A DNA stretch of 64,000 nucleotides from Mucilaginibacter lappiensis (GTDB taxonomy: Bacteria; Bacteroidota; Bacteroidia; Sphingobacteriales; Sphingobacteriaceae), in the NCBI RefSeq assembly GCF_900155965.1, contig NZ_FTMG01000009.1, positions 62,001 to 126,000 of the forward strand, in the 5' to 3' direction. Under the pieces are notes generated by a model. That model saw nothing but the letters and a program-made list of their open reading frames with translations, was not told where the DNA came from and made no database searches. Within the stretch, counting starts at the first letter, position 1. Each line of letters starts with the position of its first letter. A program made the position numbers and the translations under genes. Below are positions 5,075-53,248 of this stretch, in pieces.

Positions 5075-5166
5075 GTATCAAGTAGTTAGTATCAAGTATC
5101 AAGATTTTTGAAATCCTCATAAAACAATTGCAGCAGTCATGATACTTGATACTAACTACTTGATAC
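5075..5166. repeat. Word-array element with perfect 26-base inverted arms (GTATCAAGTA words)
   Basis: 5075-5100 and 5141-5166 are exact reverse complements over 26 bases, separated by a 40-base loop. Within each arm the word GTATCAAGTA/GTATCAAG repeats with a GTTA spacer. The left arm stops one base short of the start codon at 5073. The right arm contains the stop codon (TAG at 5152) and the last five codons (RVSSS) of the upstream gene. The exact symmetry suggests recent formation or active maintenance. Confidence 0.9.
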
Positions 5167-31642: not shown

Positions 31643-32650
31643 TTATGGGTTCATGATCTTGATCAGATCCTTGGTTACCTTGTAATCAGGAACACGGAGT
31701 GTGTTGTCATGCATAGAGGTTAGCGGCGCATCACGGTCAATAGCATAACCAAAGGTGCCACCTTTTTTGCCTGAAGTTGGCTCCCAGCGGGCATAATCAT
31801 AAGCACGACCTGTACCATTCTCCGGGTAAGTAACATCATCCCAGTAATTGCTTGGGTAGCCGTTTTCTTCATAAAATGAAAACCCGGGTACAAACTGAGT
31901 TGAGGTAATGTAAGATTTAAACGTGTTCCATGTGCCTTGTAAGGTGGATGAGCCTCTGCCATAAGCCTGTAACCACACAAAGTCGATCATGGTATACACT
32001 TTTCTGAAAAGGCTGTTGGTACCGGTTTGGTTGGTATCAAAGGTAAGCAGTTTGCCGGTGCCCGATTTTGGCCCCAGGTAAGCCGAAAGTGCAGTGTAAA
32101 CGCCAGTCATATCAGTTAGCGTACTACCCGATGGATTGCTTTCCACATCAATATCATAACCATCCAAACCGTATTTGTTAACCACACTATCCATGATCAT
32201 TTTAGCAGTTGTCTGGTACCCAGCGGTGTTATGCGGTACGCCCGACGGAATATTCAGGTTGCCTGTGACAATTACTTTGGTGCCTTTGGCATGTAACGAG
32301 CTCACCCATGCCGGTACGCTGCCGGCAATAGGCGATGTTTTGTCAAAACAAAAAAGGATAAGTACGTCGAGACTATCGGGTACCAATGAAAAGTTAGAGC
32401 CATTTACACCAGGACCATAGCAAGGGCCCTGTACACGGTAAAAGCCTGCGCTAATTTCATGCTTGGTGGCTTTATAAGCAATCAGGTCGGCATTTGAAGC
32501 CATGGTTGTAAGCCCATTTTTAGATGCACCTGTAGTTAGTGATTTTGAGACAGTGTTTCCAGAGTTCTTTTTACAAGCCTGGGTTGTGAACAAAGCAGAA
32601 AGACCAATCAGCAAAAGACCGGCTTTTAATGAAGATGTGTTTTTTTTCAT
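31643..32650 (-). CDS. GH18-type glycoside hydrolase lipoprotein
   Basis: 335 residues from the ATG at 32650 (MKKNTSSLKAGLLLIG); the longer frame to 32707 adds 19 residues before the signal peptide. The lipobox is TTQACKKNSG (Cys at about residue 26). The GH18 catalytic signature D-G-x-D-x-D-x-E is complete in YGLDGYDIDVESNPSG (about residue 150), with the terminal Glu as acid/base. It is probably anchored to the outer or inner membrane face and cleaves beta-1,4-GlcNAc linkages in glycan or chitin-like material. Sequence around the active site differs from the two EndoF/H-like neighbours, so the substrate may differ. It is the last of four tandem GH18 genes. Confidence 0.82.
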   Translation of the reverse strand: MKKNTSSLKAGLLLIGLSALFTTQACKKNSGNTVSKSLTTGASKNGLTTMASNADLIAYKATKHEISAGFYRVQGPCYGPGVNGSNFSLVPDSLDVLILFCFDKTSPIAGSVPAWVSSLHAKGTKVIVTGNLNIPSGVPHNTAGYQTTAKMIMDSVVNKYGLDGYDIDVESNPSGSTLTDMTGVYTALSAYLGPKSGTGKLLTFDTNQTGTNSLFRKVYTMIDFVWLQAYGRGSSTLQGTWNTFKSYITSTQFVPGFSFYEENGYPSNYWDDVTYPENGTGRAYDYARWEPTSGKKGGTFGYAIDRDAPLTSMHDNTLRVPDYKVTKDLIKIMNP

Positions 32651-32797
32651 AATGGGGGATTTTAGAGGGTTTATGTTTGATGAAATTGTTTCTGAAATAA
32701 ATAACAAGGAGGTTGCATAGGAACCCTTCCGGAGAAGGGCCCTTATACAAACTAATCAACCTTACCCAGTTTCTCAAGCTGGATAATGCCTTATTCA

Positions 32798-34129
32798 TTA
32801 TTGAATTTTAACAGAGGTTACTTTATCATTGGCATTTGGCGACAAGGTGGTAAAGTCGGGCGTGTTTGCCGTACGTGTCCAGGATGTGCCGCCAAAGTTA
32901 TCGTTGATATACATGATCACTGTCCATCCCGATGGTACTTTTACCGATGATGCCCAGTTATCCACAAAACCATAAGCCTGTAATTGGGACAGGGTATAGG
33001 TGCCTTTAGGTATCAGGCTGGTAACCGTACCGCCATAATTAGTATTTTGATAAAAAGTTACGCCGGTGGTTGGAGTACCGCTGCCAGAGCCGTTCATAAG
33101 CTGAATGGCATTCCTTGACACTATAAATGGAGGAGTATGGTTATAATCGCGGCTCATGCGGTAAGCGCCAACGCCGGCAACCTTGTTGGTTTTGGCCCAA
33201 TTAGTGGCATAACTGTACAGATCGGATGTTGCTTGAGCATCGCCGCCTGATTGATCTTCAGTGCCATCGGCATGTTTAAAGCTATCGCCGTTAACCAGCA
33301 AAATAGTTTTATCCGATCCATAAGTAGAAGCTATCGAAGATAGTGGGAAGGAACTGCTGCTCCAGAAATGGCTTCCGGTAGTATAGGACTGGAATAATAT
33401 ATAGTCATAATTGCTTTTAGTGCCGGTTAAAGTATTGTTATCCAAAGATCCGTCGGTATCATAAAAGAATACCGGTTTTTTGCCCATGCTTTTGGTAACT
33501 GCCGAGGTAGAGTTCGGTCCGAACCATTTGGCCACCGATGTTAGTAAATTCGGATAACTGCTGCTGGTTACGTTTTTGTTGTCGATGGTACCGGATTCTA
33601 TATCCAGATCTATACCGTCTAAAGAATCGGCTACAATATGCTGGTTATACATCGCCTGCGACCAATGATCATAAGTGCTGGTTGAACTGGCAACGGTCTT
33701 GGTTGAAGTTGGCGTAGCCGGATCCTTGGATGATCCATCAAAATAGGCATCCTGCAGAAAGTGACACACCACTATCCTGGTTCCTTTGGCTTGTGCTGCA
33801 CGCCAATGAGATCTGGTGGCATCATTCCCGGCAAAAAACTCCAGAAAGTCGGTACTGTCTGGTGCATTGGCCGGATTATAACTGGCAGCAGGATCGGCAC
33901 CATCACCTACCAAAAAACCTACAAATATTTTATGTACACTATTTTTGTAAGCAATCAGGTCGGCATTTGAAGTGGCCGCCTGGGTTTTTAAACTATTCTT
34001 GGATGCACCAAGTGTTTGTAGTTTTTCGGCCGAGTTTCCGCTATCCTTTTTGCAGGATGAAGTAAGGGCAAGCGCCAACATACAGAGCATAGGCAATCCT
34101 ACCCTCGTTAAAAAAGCATTTTTTTTCAT
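32798..34129 (-). CDS. GH18-type lipoprotein with C-terminal beta/gamma-crystallin-like domain
   Basis: 443 residues. The signal peptide and lipobox end in LALTSSCKKDSG (Cys at about residue 26). The GH18 signature is in SLDGIDLDIESGTIDNK (about residue 172), with the acid/base Glu present. The last 85 residues (VTFYQNTNYGGTVTSLIPKG onward) form a beta/gamma-crystallin-like Greek-key domain with the YGG and WASSVKVPSGW motifs. Almost the same module ends the next gene. Such modules can bind calcium or glycans; which one applies here is not readable. The start ATG is at 34127-34129, followed by a basic N-region. Confidence 0.82.
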   Translation of the reverse strand: MKKNAFLTRVGLPMLCMLALALTSSCKKDSGNSAEKLQTLGASKNSLKTQAATSNADLIAYKNSVHKIFVGFLVGDGADPAASYNPANAPDSTDFLEFFAGNDATRSHWRAAQAKGTRIVVCHFLQDAYFDGSSKDPATPTSTKTVASSTSTYDHWSQAMYNQHIVADSLDGIDLDIESGTIDNKNVTSSSYPNLLTSVAKWFGPNSTSAVTKSMGKKPVFFYDTDGSLDNNTLTGTKSNYDYILFQSYTTGSHFWSSSSFPLSSIASTYGSDKTILLVNGDSFKHADGTEDQSGGDAQATSDLYSYATNWAKTNKVAGVGAYRMSRDYNHTPPFIVSRNAIQLMNGSGSGTPTTGVTFYQNTNYGGTVTSLIPKGTYTLSQLQAYGFVDNWASSVKVPSGWTVIMYINDNFGGTSWTRTANTPDFTTLSPNANDKVTSVKIQ

Positions 34130-34153
34130 AATAGTTTTTTTATAAACAGTTAA

Positions 34154-34240
34154 ATAGAGTCAAGAGCCAAGAGTCAAGAATCAAGAAAGGAGTGAAATTG
34201 ATCGATGACCATTTTTAACTCTTGATTCTCGATTCTTATT
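34154..34240. repeat. Word-array inverted repeat (AGAGTCAAGAG/AATCAAGAA words)
   Basis: Left arm 34154-34188 repeats AGTCAAGAGCCAAG, AGTCAAGAATCAAG. Right arm 34215-34240 is a shorter, diverged complement (AACTCTTGATTCTCGATTC). The loop is about 26 bases. It is located between two tandem GH18 genes. Confidence 0.7.
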
Positions 34241-34243
34241 TTG

Positions 34244-35482
34244 TTATTGAATTTTAACAGAGCTTACCACATCGTTCGCATTGGGCGACAGGGTGGTGAA
34301 ATTGGTAGTGTTGGCGGTTAACGTCCAGGAGGTGCCGGTAAAATTATCATCACTGTACATGGTCACTGTCCATCCCGAAGGAATTTTTACCGATGATGCC
34401 CAATCGTTCACAAACCCCAAAGCCTGCAACTGTGATAAGGTGTAATTGCCCTTGGCTATGTTGCTGGTAACGGTACCGCCATAATTGATATCCTGATAAA
34501 AAGTAACACCGGTAGCCGGTGGAGTAGTGCCGCCGCTGCCAAACACCGTAGCTTTACCATATAACGCGTTAGATACATTGCTCAGGTAAGTGTGCGAATC
34601 AGCATTAGGCAGATTATAGTACAGGTAGATGCCATAACCATCGCTTACTGTTTGTGTTGCTAATGATGCTGCTGTTGATGCGTCGGTGCTTTGGATATCA
34701 ATAGCAGCAGGACCCAGGTTGCTTTTAGCTAATCCCGGTACATTTGGGGCGCCGTAGCTGCCGTAATAAGCTTGCCAGCTATAATCAATTTTTGAGCCTA
34801 CGGTTACACCATTATAACTTAAGTTTGATGCGGCAGGGCCAATAAAATAAAAGGAGATCAGCTTATTGGGCATCAGCTGGCGTAGCGCGGTTACCAGGTA
34901 AACAAAAGAGCTAGAGTTGGGTTGCCCGGTGTTGTTGGTTCCGTAATCGGCATATTCATCGTCAAAATCAATACCATCCAAACCGTAGGTGGTTACAGCA
35001 TTTGCGAGTAGTTGGGCAAAATCCTGTGCAGCCTGCTGGCTCGGGAAGTTGGAGATACCTGCGCCTTGGTGATTACCCAGGATGGATAGCATTACCTTAA
35101 TACCCTTGGCTTGTAATGGCTGAATCTTAGTGGCCGCGTTGTTTAATACAGCAGTTACCTGCGGATTGAAAAATAATTCGGCCTTTTGGGTAGTGGTGTT
35201 GTAATTGATATTGGCCGCGAATATAATACCGATATCAAAAAGCTGCTCCCCGGTTGACAGGGTATAATTGCCTACATTAAGAATATCGTTATTGTTCACC
35301 TCTACATAACAAACACCTTTAGGACCGCTAACGCCAATGGCATTGGTGCCCAATTTTGATGAAGCAGTGTTTGTTTTTGCATTAGGGGTAAGGTCTTTTT
35401 TACAGGCTGCTGTACACATTAGCGCAAAGCCAAATAGGGCTACAGCTATCCTGTTAAAGGATAAATTGATAGATGTTTTCAT
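34244..35482 (-). CDS. Endo-beta-N-acetylglucosaminidase (EndoF/EndoH-like GH18) lipoprotein with crystallin-like tail
   Basis: 412 residues. The signal peptide and lipobox end in LMCTAACKKDLTP. The catalytic motif YGLDGIDFDDEYADYG (about residue 165) matches the D-G-x-D-F-D-x-E form found in EndoH and EndoF1, enzymes that cut between the two core GlcNAc residues of N-glycans. Supporting blocks are VMLSILGNHQGAGISNFPSQ and LRQLMPNKLISFYFIG. A beta/gamma-crystallin-like module (VTFYQDINYGGTVTSNIAKG onward) occupies the last 85 residues. Its catalytic part is nearly identical to the next gene, a recent tandem duplication. N-glycan scavenging from eukaryotic glycoproteins is the likely role. Confidence 0.87.
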   Translation of the reverse strand: MKTSINLSFNRIAVALFGFALMCTAACKKDLTPNAKTNTASSKLGTNAIGVSGPKGVCYVEVNNNDILNVGNYTLSTGEQLFDIGIIFAANINYNTTTQKAELFFNPQVTAVLNNAATKIQPLQAKGIKVMLSILGNHQGAGISNFPSQQAAQDFAQLLANAVTTYGLDGIDFDDEYADYGTNNTGQPNSSSFVYLVTALRQLMPNKLISFYFIGPAASNLSYNGVTVGSKIDYSWQAYYGSYGAPNVPGLAKSNLGPAAIDIQSTDASTAASLATQTVSDGYGIYLYYNLPNADSHTYLSNVSNALYGKATVFGSGGTTPPATGVTFYQDINYGGTVTSNIAKGNYTLSQLQALGFVNDWASSVKIPSGWTVTMYSDDNFTGTSWTLTANTTNFTTLSPNANDVVSSVKIQ

Positions 35483-35514
35483 GTCGGTTTCTATTGGTTT
35501 TTCAAGGGTAAATT

Positions 35515-36465
35515 TTAGGGCTGTTTCACGGTAGCTTTACCATATAGCGCGTTAGAAACGCTGGTTAAGTAAGTATGCACATCTGTATTAGGCAGGTTAT
35601 AATACAGGTAAATACCGTAGCTGTTATTAACAGTTTGTGTAGCCAGTGAAGCCGCGGTTGATGAGCTGGTACTCTGGATATCAATAGCAGCAGGCCCTAA
35701 ATTGCTTTTAGCTAATCCCGGAACATTTGGTACTGAATAAGACCCATAAATGGCATTCCAGCTGTAATTAACTTTTGAGCCTACGGTTACGCCATTATAG
35801 CTTAGGCGAGATGCTGCCGGGCCATAAAAATAAAAAGAGATGAGTTTGTTAGGCATCAGCTGACGCAAGGCGGTTACCAGATATACAAATGAGCTGGAGT
35901 TGGGTTGCCCGGTATTATTGGTACCGTAATCGGCATATTCATCGTCAAAGTCGATACCGTCAAGACCGTAAGTAGTAACGGCGTTGCTGAGCAGTTGGGC
36001 AAAATCCTGCGCAGCTTGTTGGCTCGGGAAGTTAGAGATGCCCGCACCCTGGTGATTACCCAAAATAGAAAGCATTACCTTAATACCTTTGGCCTGCAGG
36101 GTTTGTATATAAGTAGCTTTGTTGCTCAATACATTAGTTACCTGCGGATTAAAAAATAACTCGGCCTTTTGGGTGGTGGTGTTATAGTTAATGTTGGCCG
36201 CGAATATAATGGCGATATCAAACAATTGTTGTCCGGTTGATAAGGTGTACTTACCTACGTTACGGATGTCGTTGCTGTTAACCTCTACATAGCAAACACC
36301 TTTTGGGCCGCTAACGCCAATGGCGCTGGTACTTAATTTTGATGAGGTATTGTCAGTTTGTGGAGTTGGAGCGAGGTCTTTTTTACAGGCTGCTGTAAAT
36401 AGGAGCGAAAAGCCCAACAAGGCCACTGACGCTTTGGTAAATAGTGAATTAGATGTTTTTCTCAT
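35515..36465 (-). CDS. Endo-beta-N-acetylglucosaminidase (EndoF/EndoH-like GH18) lipoprotein, short paralogue
   Basis: 316 residues. Lipobox LLFTAACKKDLAP. The catalytic motif YGLDGIDFDDEYADYG and most of the rest match the preceding paralogue almost residue for residue, but the protein stops at NALYGKATVKQP, just where the paralogue continues into its crystallin-like tail. Either the tail was lost here by a new stop or gained in the copy. It is the first gene of the four-gene GH18 row and no SusC/SusD pair is near, unlike most Bacteroidetes glycan loci. Confidence 0.87.
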   Translation of the reverse strand: MRKTSNSLFTKASVALLGFSLLFTAACKKDLAPTPQTDNTSSKLSTSAIGVSGPKGVCYVEVNSNDIRNVGKYTLSTGQQLFDIAIIFAANINYNTTTQKAELFFNPQVTNVLSNKATYIQTLQAKGIKVMLSILGNHQGAGISNFPSQQAAQDFAQLLSNAVTTYGLDGIDFDDEYADYGTNNTGQPNSSSFVYLVTALRQLMPNKLISFYFYGPAASRLSYNGVTVGSKVNYSWNAIYGSYSVPNVPGLAKSNLGPAAIDIQSTSSSTAASLATQTVNNSYGIYLYYNLPNTDVHTYLTSVSNALYGKATVKQP

Positions 36466-48983: not shown

Positions 48984-50642
48984 ATGGTTTCTCTTTTTGA
49001 ATCTAAAACCAATGGCCCCAAGGCCGCAAAACTCCTGCTTGACATTTTGAATGTTAAAGTTACGGAAACAACACTAACTCAGGAAATAGAAGAACATCCG
49101 GATTATCCAAGCTTATTAAGCATAAGTGATGTGTTGAATAATCATGGCGTTGAAAATATGGGTATAAGAGTTGATCCTGAAAAGTTTGATGAACTTCCCT
49201 GTCCATTTATTACCCAGATACGGTGGGGAAAGGTACCCGCAAATCTTTTTACTGTTGTAAAGGAAGTGAATGAAAAAAATATCCAGTTTTTTGACCCGGA
49301 AAAACATCGATGGACTTCCCTTGATAAAGAGACTTTTTTAAAGAGGTGGTCAGGCATTGTATTATTAGCTGAAGCAAGCGATGATGCAGGAGAGAAGGAC
49401 TATAACAAAAAGGCAAAAGAAGAAAACAGGAAAAATATCATTCAATATCTAAGCGCCTTTTGTATCCCTGCTATAGTTATTATTGCCGGGCTATTGACCC
49501 TAACGCAATTAGGCGCAAACGCTTTGCTGCCGGTTGCTTTTACTTTGATAACGCTTGCCGGAGGTATCACCGGGGCTTTATTGCTTTGGTATGAGATCGA
49601 TCAGCATAATCCTGTATTTCAGCAAATTTGCAATGCCGGTAAAAAGGTAAACTGCGGAGCTATATTGCAATCCAAAGCCGCAAAAATTGGAGGTATTAGC
49701 TGGAGTGTTTTAGGCTTTAGTTATTTCATGGGTATATTGCTGTTGTTGTTATTTTCAGGTATCACCAATCCAACTGCATTGTTTGTTATATCCTGGCTAA
49801 ATGTAGTAGCTGTACCGTATGTGATATTCTCCATTTACTATCAGTGGCGTGTAGCCAAACAATGGTGTGTATTGTGTTTATGTGTACAGGGGGTATTGGT
49901 GCTACAGCTGGCAACTACACTTGTGGGTGGCTGGCACACTTTACTATCATTTAATATCATTGAACCCGGATTAATCATTTCAACTTTAACGGCTCTGGTT
50001 ATTCCGTTTATTGTCACCACTTTATTAATACCGGCTTTTCAAAAAGCTAAAGGAAGCAAACAGATTAATACTGAACTACAAAAGCTAAAACACAACAGGC
50101 AGATATTTGAAGCATTGCTTGAAAAACAAAAGAGGGTGGTAAATATCCCCACTGGACTTGGCATAACCCTGGGTAACCCCAACGGTATTTATAAATTGAT
50201 TAAAGTATGCAATCCTTATTGCGGCCCATGTGCTAAAGCCCATCAGCCGATGGAGGATTTACTGGAAAATAACCCGGATGTTCAGATACAAATATTATTT
50301 ACCGCTACAAACAGCGAAGGAGACACAAAAGCGCCTCCTGTAAGGCATTTGTTAGCTATTGCTGAAAAAAATGAAGAGCCTGTTATAAAAAAAGCGTTGG
50401 ATGACTGGTATCTGGCCGAAAAGAAAGATTATGAAGTATTTGCTGCCAAATATCCAATGAATGGCGAATTGAAACAGCAAAATGCTAAAATAGAAGCTAT
50501 GGAAAATTGGTGTGATACTATAGAAATAGAATTTACCCCCACTTTTTTTGTTTCCATTCCAAATGATGAAAATGAAGTAACATATTATCAATTGCCAGAA
50601 ATATATAGTGTAATTGATTTAAAATATTTCTTTTCTGTATAA
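48984..50642 (+). CDS. C39-like / VKOR / thioredoxin fusion, putative disulfide-forming maturase for the neighbouring peptides
   Basis: 552 residues. N-terminal domain (1-130): HPDYPSLLSISDVLNNHGVE and PANLFTVVKEVNEKNIQFFDPEKHRW resemble peptidase C39, but the usual catalytic Cys and His positions are not conserved (the segment that should hold the Cys reads AAKLLLDILNV; the His position reads NLFTVV). It therefore looks like an inactive leader-binding module. Then come five or so membrane helices (about 150-350) with VKOR cysteine pairs in CNAGKKVNCGAIL (about residue 223) and QWCVLCLCVQGVL (about residue 300). A soluble thioredoxin-like domain follows with the CXXC-containing KVCNPYCGPCAKAHQPMEDL (about residue 412). 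VKOR-thioredoxin fusions make disulfides in the periplasm. The GG-leader peptides downstream are the obvious candidate substrates. Confidence 0.88.
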   Translation: MVSLFESKTNGPKAAKLLLDILNVKVTETTLTQEIEEHPDYPSLLSISDVLNNHGVENMGIRVDPEKFDELPCPFITQIRWGKVPANLFTVVKEVNEKNIQFFDPEKHRWTSLDKETFLKRWSGIVLLAEASDDAGEKDYNKKAKEENRKNIIQYLSAFCIPAIVIIAGLLTLTQLGANALLPVAFTLITLAGGITGALLLWYEIDQHNPVFQQICNAGKKVNCGAILQSKAAKIGGISWSVLGFSYFMGILLLLLFSGITNPTALFVISWLNVVAVPYVIFSIYYQWRVAKQWCVLCLCVQGVLVLQLATTLVGGWHTLLSFNIIEPGLIISTLTALVIPFIVTTLLIPAFQKAKGSKQINTELQKLKHNRQIFEALLEKQKRVVNIPTGLGITLGNPNGIYKLIKVCNPYCGPCAKAHQPMEDLLENNPDVQIQILFTATNSEGDTKAPPVRHLLAIAEKNEEPVIKKALDDWYLAEKKDYEVFAAKYPMNGELKQQNAKIEAMENWCDTIEIEFTPTFFVSIPNDENEVTYYQLPEIYSVIDLKYFFSV

Positions 50643-50774
50643 GATAACTATTCATGATGTATGAGTAATATAAAGAGGAGGTAACCTGATCAGTAAATTA
50701 CGTGATTGCCCCCTGTGCTTCCGGGCTTAATAATAAGGAAGTAAAAATCATTAACCAATTCAATTTATAAAACA

Positions 50775-50948
50775 ATGAAAAAACTAAAATTAAAGGCGCA
50801 GGAACTTAATGTTAATGAAGTGCTTACAAGAGAACAATTGAAAAAAGTATCTGGTGGGGGCAGTAATTGCGTTAAAGACAAGGCTCCGTGCGAATGGTTT
50901 ACACCATGTTGTCATGTTTGTGCCGGAGTCTATTGTGGTGATATATAA
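50775..50948 (+). CDS. GG-leader cysteine-rich peptide precursor 1 (knottin-like)
   Basis: 57 residues, found by hand. The leader MKKLKLKAQELNVNEVLTRE ends in KVSGGG, the double-glycine cleavage context read by C39-type peptidases. The core, SNCVKDKAPCEWFTPCCHVC and onward, has six cysteines with spacing C-x6-C-x5-CC-x2-C-x4-C. That C-C-CC-C-C framework is the one used by inhibitor-cystine-knot peptides. A near-identical 5' region (ggaag...aatttataa) precedes copy 2, and a terminator follows. It is probably secreted, oxidised peptide with three disulfides. The activity (bacteriocin, signal or other) is unknown. Confidence 0.88.
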   Translation: MKKLKLKAQELNVNEVLTREQLKKVSGGGSNCVKDKAPCEWFTPCCHVCAGVYCGDI

Positions 50949-50980
50949 GCAGAAAATAGAAGATTAAGGCTATTACTTAT

Positions 50981-51017
50981 AAAAACGGCTGGAGGTAAGT
51001 CTCGGCCGTTTTTTTAC
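50981..51017 (+). terminator. Rho-independent terminator after peptide 1
   Basis: AAAAACGGC pairs with GCCGTTTTT across a loop of about 15 bases and is followed by TTT. Peptide 1 therefore has its own transcript end and is not obligately joined to peptide 2. Confidence 0.85.
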
Positions 51018-51153
51018 TAATAATTTGTTTATAAAAAACTGTTCACTCATGGTGTATCTAAGAGTATAAACATCTTTAAATAAATACAAGAGAGGTGTGT
51101 CGGTGCTTTATAAAAAGGAAGCAAAAATCATTAACCAATTTAATTTATAAATA

Positions 51154-51339
51154 ATGAAAAAACTAAAATTAAAAGTATTAGGATTGACTACTAATGAAGT
51201 GCTCACAAGGGCACAGTTGAAAAAAGTATCAGGTGGAGGGAGTCATTGCCTTGCAGTTGGCAGTGCGTGCTCATTTTTTAATGACCCACCATGTTGTCTT
51301 ATTTGTCTTCCATCATTTCTTTGTGGCTATCCGTCATAA
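51154..51339 (+). CDS. GG-leader cysteine-rich peptide precursor 2 (knottin-like)
   Basis: 61 residues. The leader MKKLKLKVLGLTTNEVLTRA...KKVSGGG is nearly identical to that of peptide 1. The core SHCLAVGSACSFFNDPPCCL and onward has spacing C-x6-C-x7-CC-x2-C-x5-C and ends CGYPS. Leader conservation with a variable core between fixed cysteines is the pattern expected of a precursor family under diversifying selection. The 5' region 51117-51153 repeats that of peptide 1 with few changes, so the duplication included the leader RNA. Confidence 0.9.
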   Translation: MKKLKLKVLGLTTNEVLTRAQLKKVSGGGSHCLAVGSACSFFNDPPCCLICLPSFLCGYPS

Positions 51340-51432
51340 GCTAAAAGTTGTAACCTCCAGAGCAAACTTTTTAATATTTTGTACATCTTAAAAAGAGAGC
51401 AAAGCTGACCAATTAATTTAACGCATGAAGCA

Positions 51433-51612
51433 ATGAAAAACTAAAATTAAAAGCATTGAAATTATCTGCTAACGAGGTGCTTACAAGGGCGAAATAAAAA
51501 AGTGTTGTGCGGTGGGAGCAATTGTGTTAAATATGGTGAAGCTTGTGAATTTTACATATTATGTTGCGGTATTTGCCTTGCTTCACTCGTTTGTGGCTGG
51601 CCTTCTTTATAG
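51433..51612 (+). pseudogene. Decayed third GG-leader peptide precursor
   Basis: ATGAAAAACTAAAATTAAAA at 51433 matches the start of the two intact copies with one A deleted, which puts a stop at codon 4. In the leader, ACAAGGGCGAAATAAAA replaces ACAAGGGCACAGTTG, adding a second stop and frameshift. The core is still readable after that: CGGSNCVKYGEACEFYILCC, then GICLASLVCGWPSL, with C-x6-C-x5-CC-x2-C-x5-C intact. The leader is broken while the core framework survives, so decay looks recent. Confidence 0.85.
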
Positions 51613-51862: not shown

Positions 51863-53248
51863 ATGTCTCCAAATACAAAAAAATGCTTAAAGACAAAGGA
51901 AATGGTTAATAATGAAATAAAAACTATCTCTGCTTATATTATCAATTTAAAGAGCAGAGTAGATCGTAAAGAACACATTTTAAAAGAATTTGCCGGTCGC
52001 CCGGAATTTACTGCACATGTAGTGGAAGCTTGCCAGCACAAAATTGGCGCCGTTGGTTTATGGAATACGATCAGGCACATCGTGCAAAATTTGGTAAATG
52101 AAGATGATGAATATGTATTGATTTGTGAGGATGATCATCAATTTACGGCTTCTTATTCTAAAGAGTTATTGTTTAACAGTATAGCTAGCGCCCAGAATAG
52201 AAATGCAGATATATTGTTGGGAGGTATAAGTTGGTTTAAGGGTATTGTGCAGATTGAAGATCCTTTGTTTTGGGTGAAAAGCTTTAACGGAACACAGTTC
52301 CTGATCATATTCAGAAAGCTTTTTACCTCATTGTTGGCCGCTGATTTCAATGATAATGATACCGCCGACTTTAAAATATCCATACTCGCTGAGAGTCAAT
52401 TTTTTATACACCCTTTTATTTCTGTACAAAAAGATTTTGGGTATTCTGACGCTACACCTAATAATAACCAGGAAGGTCATGTTGGGGAATTGTTTGCAAC
52501 GAGTTCAGAATGGATTCAGAATTTAAAAAGTGTTGGCTTTTATTATGAAAATATTAATCGACAAATTGAGGATGAAAGTGATGAAGATGTATATCATAAT
52601 TTAATCATTCCAACTTATGTTATTAATCTGCCTGAAAGAACGGATAGACTGGAGCATATAAAAAAGCAATTTAAAGGAAAACCGGAGTTTAATGTAACAA
52701 TTGTAGAGGCCTGTAACCATAAAATAGGTTCTGTAGGCCTATGGCAAAGTATCAGAAAGATTATTAACCTGGCAATGGAAAACGATGATGATGTGATAAT
52801 TATATGCGAGGACGATCATGAGTTTACAGAGTATTACTTCAAAGAGTATTTGATGAAAAATATAATAGAGGCTCACTTACAGGGGATAAATTATTTATCG
52901 GGCGGCAGCAGCTATACTGATAATGAAATACTCATTGCTGATAATAGATTTTGGGTAAGTAATTGTCTGGCCACTCAGTTTATTATTCTTTATAAAAGCT
53001 TTTTCCAGCAAATTATTGATGAACCTTTTGATGATGGGGTTATTGTTGATCGATTACTCTCTGAAATGACAAGTAAAAAAATGGTATTGTATCCATTTAT
53101 TTCAAGGCAACATGATTTTGGATATTCAGATGTTACGACGATCCACAATGAAAATAAAAATTTGGTTAACCGGTTATTCGAGGAGAGTGATAAGAAGCTA
53201 AACGCCATTTATATTATGCATCAAAAGTATAATTCCGTAGATATATAA
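51863..53248 (+). CDS. Internally duplicated GT25-like protein near the peptide genes
   Basis: 461 residues; M14 at 51902 (MVNNEIKTISAYIINLKSRV) may be the true start. Two homologous halves, about 1-230 and 245-461. Each opens with INL-x-R-x-DR-x-EHI, then PEF...VEAC-HKIG-VGLW and an acidic motif (LICEDDHQFT and IICEDDHEFT). Each ends near HPFIS-x-Q-x-DFGYSD-x-T. The EDD motif and INL start resemble family 25 glycosyltransferases (LPS/collagen type), which use a DXD-like metal site. Placed beside precursors and a disulfide-forming enzyme, it may glycosylate the peptide, as in glycocins. It could equally act on surface glycans. Confidence 0.75.
   Translation: MSPNTKKCLKTKEMVNNEIKTISAYIINLKSRVDRKEHILKEFAGRPEFTAHVVEACQHKIGAVGLWNTIRHIVQNLVNEDDEYVLICEDDHQFTASYSKELLFNSIASAQNRNADILLGGISWFKGIVQIEDPLFWVKSFNGTQFLIIFRKLFTSLLAADFNDNDTADFKISILAESQFFIHPFISVQKDFGYSDATPNNNQEGHVGELFATSSEWIQNLKSVGFYYENINRQIEDESDEDVYHNLIIPTYVINLPERTDRLEHIKKQFKGKPEFNVTIVEACNHKIGSVGLWQSIRKIINLAMENDDDVIIICEDDHEFTEYYFKEYLMKNIIEAHLQGINYLSGGSSYTDNEILIADNRFWVSNCLATQFIILYKSFFQQIIDEPFDDGVIVDRLLSEMTSKKMVLYPFISRQHDFGYSDVTTIHNENKNLVNRLFEESDKKLNAIYIMHQKYNSVDI

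Follow-up and report, generated by a model that had tools for sequence, protein, structure and literature searches.

The 64,000-nucleotide stretch of Mucilaginibacter lappiensis DNA analysed here (the window; contig NZ_FTMG01000009.1, positions 62,001 to 126,000) carries two small genes, P1 and P2, for double-glycine (GG) leader peptides with six-cysteine cores, followed by a broken third copy. A gene for a membrane protein that joins C39-like, VKOR and thioredoxin-like domains lies directly upstream. The explanation of the whole locus that we favour, with modest confidence, is that the peptides are exported and oxidised, that the fusion protein is their dedicated oxidase and that the cores most likely take a knottin or knottin-like fold. 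The wider claim, that disulfide peptides are exported and have an oxidase of their own, has a probability much higher than even. For a true knot (I-IV, II-V, III-VI) in P1 and P2, the chances are about even.

Precursor genes and core framework

P1 (50775-50948, plus strand) encodes 57 amino acids, a 28-residue leader (50775-50858) and a 29-residue core, C-x6-C-x5-CC-x2-C-x4-C. P2 (51154-51339, plus strand) encodes 61, with a 28-residue leader (51154-51237) and a 33-residue core, C-x6-C-x7-CC-x2-C-x5-C. The third copy (51433-51612, plus strand) is a pseudogene. Small deletions have shifted its leader out of frame and left one stop immediately behind the start and a second ahead of the core, which is itself open (51502-51612; C-x6-C-x5-CC-x2-C-x5-C). 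An earlier note on this DNA had claimed that all three cores, the pseudogene's included, keep C-x6-C-x5/7-CC-x2-C-x4/5-C, and the loop lengths of 6,5,0,2,4 (P1), 6,7,0,2,5 (P2) and 6,5,0,2,5 (third copy) agree with this. The three are tandem duplicates, marked by a 113-nt direct repeat at 50732, 51111 and 51389 that spans a 5′ block and the leader, and thus do not count as three independent observations of the framework.

The leaders of P1 and P2 end in GG, share 22 of 28 residues as counted from the alignment and, by eye, are of the bacterial GG type with no hydrophobic signal. A conotoxin-style secretory signal and propeptide are absent from both precursors. Leader models for TIGR04149 (radical S-adenosylmethionine (SAM)-modified ribosomally synthesised peptides, RiPPs), Chryseo leader and class IIb peptides gave at best 15.6 bits against a curated cut-off of 23.5; the resemblance to TIGR04149 is distant and below that cut-off. 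The conserved 5′ block occupies 50732-50774 before P1, is repeated at 51111-51153 before P2 and recurs in weaker form before the pseudogene (plus strand; direct repeat D1, by alignment). The blocks of P1 and P2 are nearly identical near the start codon and could be a regulatory or ribosome-binding element.

A redox fusion gene accompanies the peptides

The 3′ end of the fusion gene (48984-50642, plus strand; 552 amino acids) lies 132 bp before P1. The protein has a C39-like domain at residues 6-132 (Pfam E 8.5e-15), a VKOR domain at 186-312 (2.7e-14) and a thioredoxin-like domain at 393-524 (Thioredoxin_4, 2e-4, just under the cut-off), and is proposed to be a dedicated disulfide synthase. VKOR cysteines 216, 224, 295 and 298 and thioredoxin cysteines C413 and C416 are invariant in all 26 aligned fusions. 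The catalytic Cys and His of C39, present in the true C39 exporter of a Mucilaginibacter sp. BT774 locus (L025), are replaced in the fusion rows of this alignment. From its residues, the C39-like domain of the fusion is predicted to be catalytically dead.

Homologues of the fusion (E 1e-40 or better) were found in 72 of 149 genomes searched within the genus and in 16 of 395 genomes drawn from the class, representing 8 of 196 genera. At 50 of 62 fusion loci examined, a leader-bearing short open reading frame (ORF) lies no more than 1.5 kb downstream of the fusion. The dedicated oxidase anticipated in the earlier note is thus matched by the gene directly upstream of P1, and by the same arrangement at these 50 loci. 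Around the 62 loci, 53 of 87 leader matches fall within the first 500 bp, in the bin that starts at the fusion 3′ end and whose bases also include the fusion gene body; upstream bins hold 0 to 3 matches per roughly 28 kb. Because peptides of the same loci went into the leader model, detection is partly circular, but their position played no part in the model. C39-peptidase/ABC exporter homologues are present in the fetched stretch at 36 of the 62 loci, and HlyD at 23.

The leader search gave 218 hidden Markov model domain rows. After removal of duplicates, ORFs without Met, cores with fewer than four cysteines and cores longer than 130 residues, 103 peptides with at least four core cysteines were left, 67 of them with six. 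A profile of the cores alone (P1, P2, third copy and the core of a congener, G098), run on the 395 class genomes, returned beyond this genome marginal matches only (E 0.0025 or worse). These were discounted; the alignments were partial, three contained stops, and G098 is not among the genomes listed for that draw. Core profile A7 gave nothing at E 1e-3 in the same 395 genomes and was uninformative.

Related cores at other loci

The C-C-CC-C-C order is found in 14 of the 67 six-cysteine cores: P1, P2, one each in G098, G013 and G157, two in G017, three in G121 and four at a Chitinophaga locus (L029). By eye, these may have one to four origins. Frameworks are otherwise highly varied, with no CC at all in 45 of the 67. 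When the residues of P1 between its first and last cysteine were shuffled, this order arose in 2% of cases.

The G098 core has exactly the spacing of P1 (6,5,0,2,4) and lies on the same strand as its own fusion gene, with its first cysteine 203 bp past it; as an independent case, it gives the framework its best support. Cores with 6,8,0,4,8/11 spacing (G017 twice, G013, G157) and with 6,5,0,3,11 spacing (the three of G121) are encoded 200-800 bp downstream of fusions, and the spacings at these other loci read as near-textbook knottin. The G121 peptides are minus-strand tandem copies of C-x6-C-x5-CC-x3-C-x11-C behind the fusion (L087, first cysteines at 1195, 913 and 641), and their leader ends in MAGSG in place of GG. 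Larger cores were also seen: an eight-cysteine core near 1971 of L125 (C-6-C-5-CC-4-C-1-C-6-C-1-C) has a sub-threshold spider-toxin Pfam match, and the C-terminal part of a ten-cysteine core in L043 nearly reaches the conotoxin O-superfamily cut-off.

Leader and core evolve at different rates

Nonsynonymous (dN) and synonymous (dS) rates were compared among P1, P2 and the pseudogene. Between P1 and P2 the leader gives dN 0.13 and dS 0.94 (dN/dS about 0.14) and the core dN 0.65 and dS 0.44 (about 1.5), each ratio resting on few sites. The cores share 11 identical positions, six of which are the cysteines, and otherwise have little in common. Evolution is faster in the core than in the leader. 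When either core is set against that of the pseudogene, dN/dS stays below 1 (0.48/2.0 and 0.39/1.46), so that the sign of diversification comes from the P1/P2 pair. The constant leader and variable core described in the earlier note are seen here; the diversification that it read from them is suggested by one pair of the three. At other loci (L004, L012/L170, L033, L039) the core of an eight-cysteine GG peptide hardly differs between four genomes of the genus, which is the reverse of diversification.

Similarity to knotted peptides

Knottin loops range over 3-7/3-10/0-7/1-17/4-19 residues. P1 and P2 have six cysteines in knottin order, and the loops of P1, P2, the third copy and the G098 core are all inside these ranges. 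In searches of PDB sequences, the matches were knotted toxins for P1 in six of six (best E 0.45), for a G017 core in eight of eight (best E 0.045) and for a G121 core in four of five (best E 0.093); the best match of the G098 core was a double-knot toxin (E 0.0014). We take the toxins named in these matches to be knotted. A profile of P1, P2, the pseudogene and G098 matched an I-superfamily conotoxin best (E 0.0034), with a copper-binding bundle and viral chains lower in the list. Three cysteine-preserving shuffles had no PDB match up to E 10, and a C-CC-C-C-C core from the same genome had none at E 10.

In Pfam, P1 scored 13.9 bits with Toxin_19 (curated cut-off 23.2). Knottin-type toxin families were among the matches of all six further inhibitor-cystine-knot-like cores or segments, the closest at 22.6 bits where the cut-off is 24.3. 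On these scores the cores were rejected as members of a conotoxin family or any other toxin family.

Weighing the fold and the pathway

Several results weigh against the reading that we favour. The P2 core had two PDB matches, neither of them a knottin. Every Pfam toxin score is below its curated cut-off, and one of four cysteine-preserving shuffles also reached Toxin_19 (I-superfamily; E 0.0038). Structure prediction with AlphaFold, run on the P1 core, gave a weak model (predicted local distance difference test (pLDDT) 63, predicted template-modelling score 0.30) with short strands and no Foldseek fold match. Shuffling between the first and last cysteine predicts a mean of 2.4 C-C-CC-C-C cores (maximum 10 in 2000) against the 14 observed, but single-linkage clustering places all 14 in one of 21 families, against 0.81 families expected; the excess per sequence thus reflects related sequences, and an independent enrichment of this order was rejected. 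No exporter was found among the window ORFs read. Two close relatives, G022 and G083, retain the fusion without adjacent peptides. A C-C-CC-C-C core of L029, which shares the cysteine order of P1, models like NFAP2 rather than like a knottin.

The Chitinophaga dinghuensis locus L029 (5597-7018) has four GG peptides encoded in tandem, their cores being C-x7-C-x8-CC-x11-C-x7/10-C, and its stretch has GT25-like and HlyD genes and no fusion gene. The core model matches NFAP2 with a Foldseek probability of 1.00 (TM-scores 0.63/0.67, Z 5.6, root-mean-square deviation 1.3 over 43 residues). The disulfide pairing of NFAP2 is given as abbcac (PMC11818080, PMC10273333). The cysteine order alone is thus no proof of a knot. 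The same exported, oxidised GG peptides may instead have a non-knotted fold (ladder, nested or an NFAP2/PAF-like β-strand fold), the knottin look being convergence of spacing. We hold this to be a substantial possibility, short of an even chance. It is favoured by the model of the four-paralogue L029 core at pLDDT 80, by the short C4-C5 (2) and C5-C6 (4-5) loops of P1 and P2, by the lack of a knottin match for P2 and by an additional weak match of the G098 core to elafin/WAP. However, the L029 loops (7,8,0,11,10) are far from those of P1 (6,5,0,2,4), and knotted peptides are the best matches of P1 and G098 among the non-shuffled searches. Of the inhibitor-cystine-knot framework proposed in the earlier note, the spacing and a loop similarity missing from the three PDB-searched shuffles stand; the P2 matches and the Pfam scores do not bear out a knottin.

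Two further explanations dispense with functional disulfides. Cysteine-rich peptides bridged by thioethers, or binding metal, would fit the distant likeness of the leader to TIGR04149 and the LanC-like gene of the G098 cluster. Yet no radical SAM or LanB/LanM-type protein was found among the window ORFs read (by eye, with no family search of all ORFs), and the neighbouring gene that stays constant encodes a redox fusion with none of its catalytic cysteines missing; this explanation is improbable. That the locus is decaying and its peptides are non-functional is more improbable still. One of three copies is broken, the G155 precursor is degenerate, and in G022 mraZ directly follows the fusion with peptides and glycosyltransferase gone, but the reading frames of P1, P2, the fusion and the glycosyltransferase are open and the P1/P2 leader retains its low dN/dS of about 0.14.

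For exported peptides with their own oxidase, the account is built on gene order, motifs, co-occurrence, framework and sequence similarity; from these we infer that the leader is bound and that these peptides are oxidised, and also their knot topology, function and glycosylation. P1 and P2 would be translated as ribosomal precursors with the 28-residue GG leader. An exporter of the C39 peptidase/ABC type, whose gene lies at another place in the genome, would read the leader, cut after GG and export the core. In the simplest case the dead C39 domain of the fusion would bind the leader, or the exporter-bound precursor, and hand the peptide over, like the degenerate C39 domain of HlyB-type exporters. 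The fusion has six hydrophobic stretches, which would fit either membrane side for this domain; a periplasmic location would weaken the idea of leader binding. The membrane fusion would then oxidise the six cysteines, passing electrons through thioredoxin and VKOR to quinone. The oxidised cores would most likely fold as compact knottins (I-IV, II-V, III-VI) or in a knottin-like manner, and the GT25-like neighbour may glycosylate the peptide. The mature peptides are probably antagonistic, towards related bacteria or fungi, or have a signalling role.

Downstream gene, exporters and locus turnover

The GT25-like protein (51863-53248, plus strand; 461 amino acids) has two Glyco_transf_25 matches (Pfam PF01755, 1.1e-14) and may be an accessory glycosyltransferase of the cluster. 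It is the sole copy in this genome; homologues occur at 4 of 62 fusion loci, and also in L025 and L029. A PADLOC match of this protein (E 0.0026) was judged to be due to chance.

On other contigs of this genome, six further C39 matches fall in long open frames. Two of them, both at contig ends, share 82% and 78% identity with the exporter of the L025 cluster, which is complete, with a GT25-like protein, two peptides, the fusion, a C39-ABC exporter and HlyD. Precursors at 5153 and 6001 of L025, and in L036, have GK where GG would be expected for cleavage. The G098 cluster (L108, 10241-12770) also encodes the LanC-like protein and a 521-residue protein with no Pfam family; G013 encodes a protein that resembles the latter.

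In G022 the fusion gene is 82% identical, and a gene that we take to be mraZ, the same that follows the glycosyltransferase gene in the window, starts 223 bp later; the peptides and the glycosyltransferase are absent. The fusion of G083 is 88% identical and has no adjacent peptide, and G155 retains a degenerate precursor. These states suggest that the oxidase gene is retained while the peptide cassette comes and goes at one fixed site. This genome encodes more GG cysteine-rich peptides unlinked to the fusion, and a single fusion could serve them in trans. Apart from this locus, the window has four tandem lipoprotein-like genes on the minus strand (31643-36465), two with a C-terminal repeat domain; by eye we take them to resemble GH18-type glycosidases.

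Significance and comparison with known systems

A broader picture can be drawn tentatively, with a probability somewhat under one half. In this picture of leader-guided oxidative folding in Bacteroidota, the dead C39-VKOR-thioredoxin protein would read one constant GG leader and fold hypervariable cores, several of them true knottins independent of venom and plant knottins, in a bacterial parallel to the conotoxin precursor strategy. If true, a bacterial knottin family with its own oxidase and shared leader would be an independent origin of the fold, its enzyme would be genetically tractable for knotted-peptide production, and the 103 leader-bearing peptides collected would form a large natural library. 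Dead C39 domains would gain a suggested role, that of reading the leader as part of a disulfide synthase. Among the papers listed in searches of open-licence PMC text there was no bacterial GG-leader knottin and no C39-VKOR-thioredoxin fusion for peptides, which is weak evidence of absence.

The C39-like domain of HlyB-type exporters is degenerate, lacks the catalytic Cys and is proposed to bind substrate. There it is joined to an ABC transporter, whereas here it is joined to VKOR and thioredoxin domains. Bacteroidetocins, a proposed class (IIf) of bacteriocins from Bacteroidetes, are the closest system to have been studied and illustrate the principle. They too are cysteine peptides with GG leaders, made by Bacteroidota, and beside their genes stands one for a thiol oxidoreductase that full toxin activity requires; when it is deleted, activity is attenuated (PMC6671954). 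Their set also includes a peptidase-ABC exporter, which was not found among the window ORFs read around P1 and P2, and a five-transmembrane protein. Their leaders are of 15-16 residues as against 28 here, bacteroidetocins A and B have four cysteines as against six, and no knottin framework is reported for them in the available text of that paper. The fold of NFAP2 and of the fungal disulfide β-strand antifungal proteins (PMC10273333, PMC11818080) is matched by the Chitinophaga relative and not by the P1 model, and the cysteine spacing differs.

Animals, plants and fungi are the best-known sources of knottins. With the inhibitor cystine knot peptides (conotoxin O and I superfamilies, spider and scorpion knottins), P1 and P2 share the C-C-CC-C-C order, the loop lengths, a weak similarity of loop residues and a constant leader with a variable core. 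They differ in that a bacterial GG leader replaces the secretory prepro-region and that all profile scores are below cut-off. The relation of P1 and P2 to venom knottins is more likely one of convergence than of common descent.
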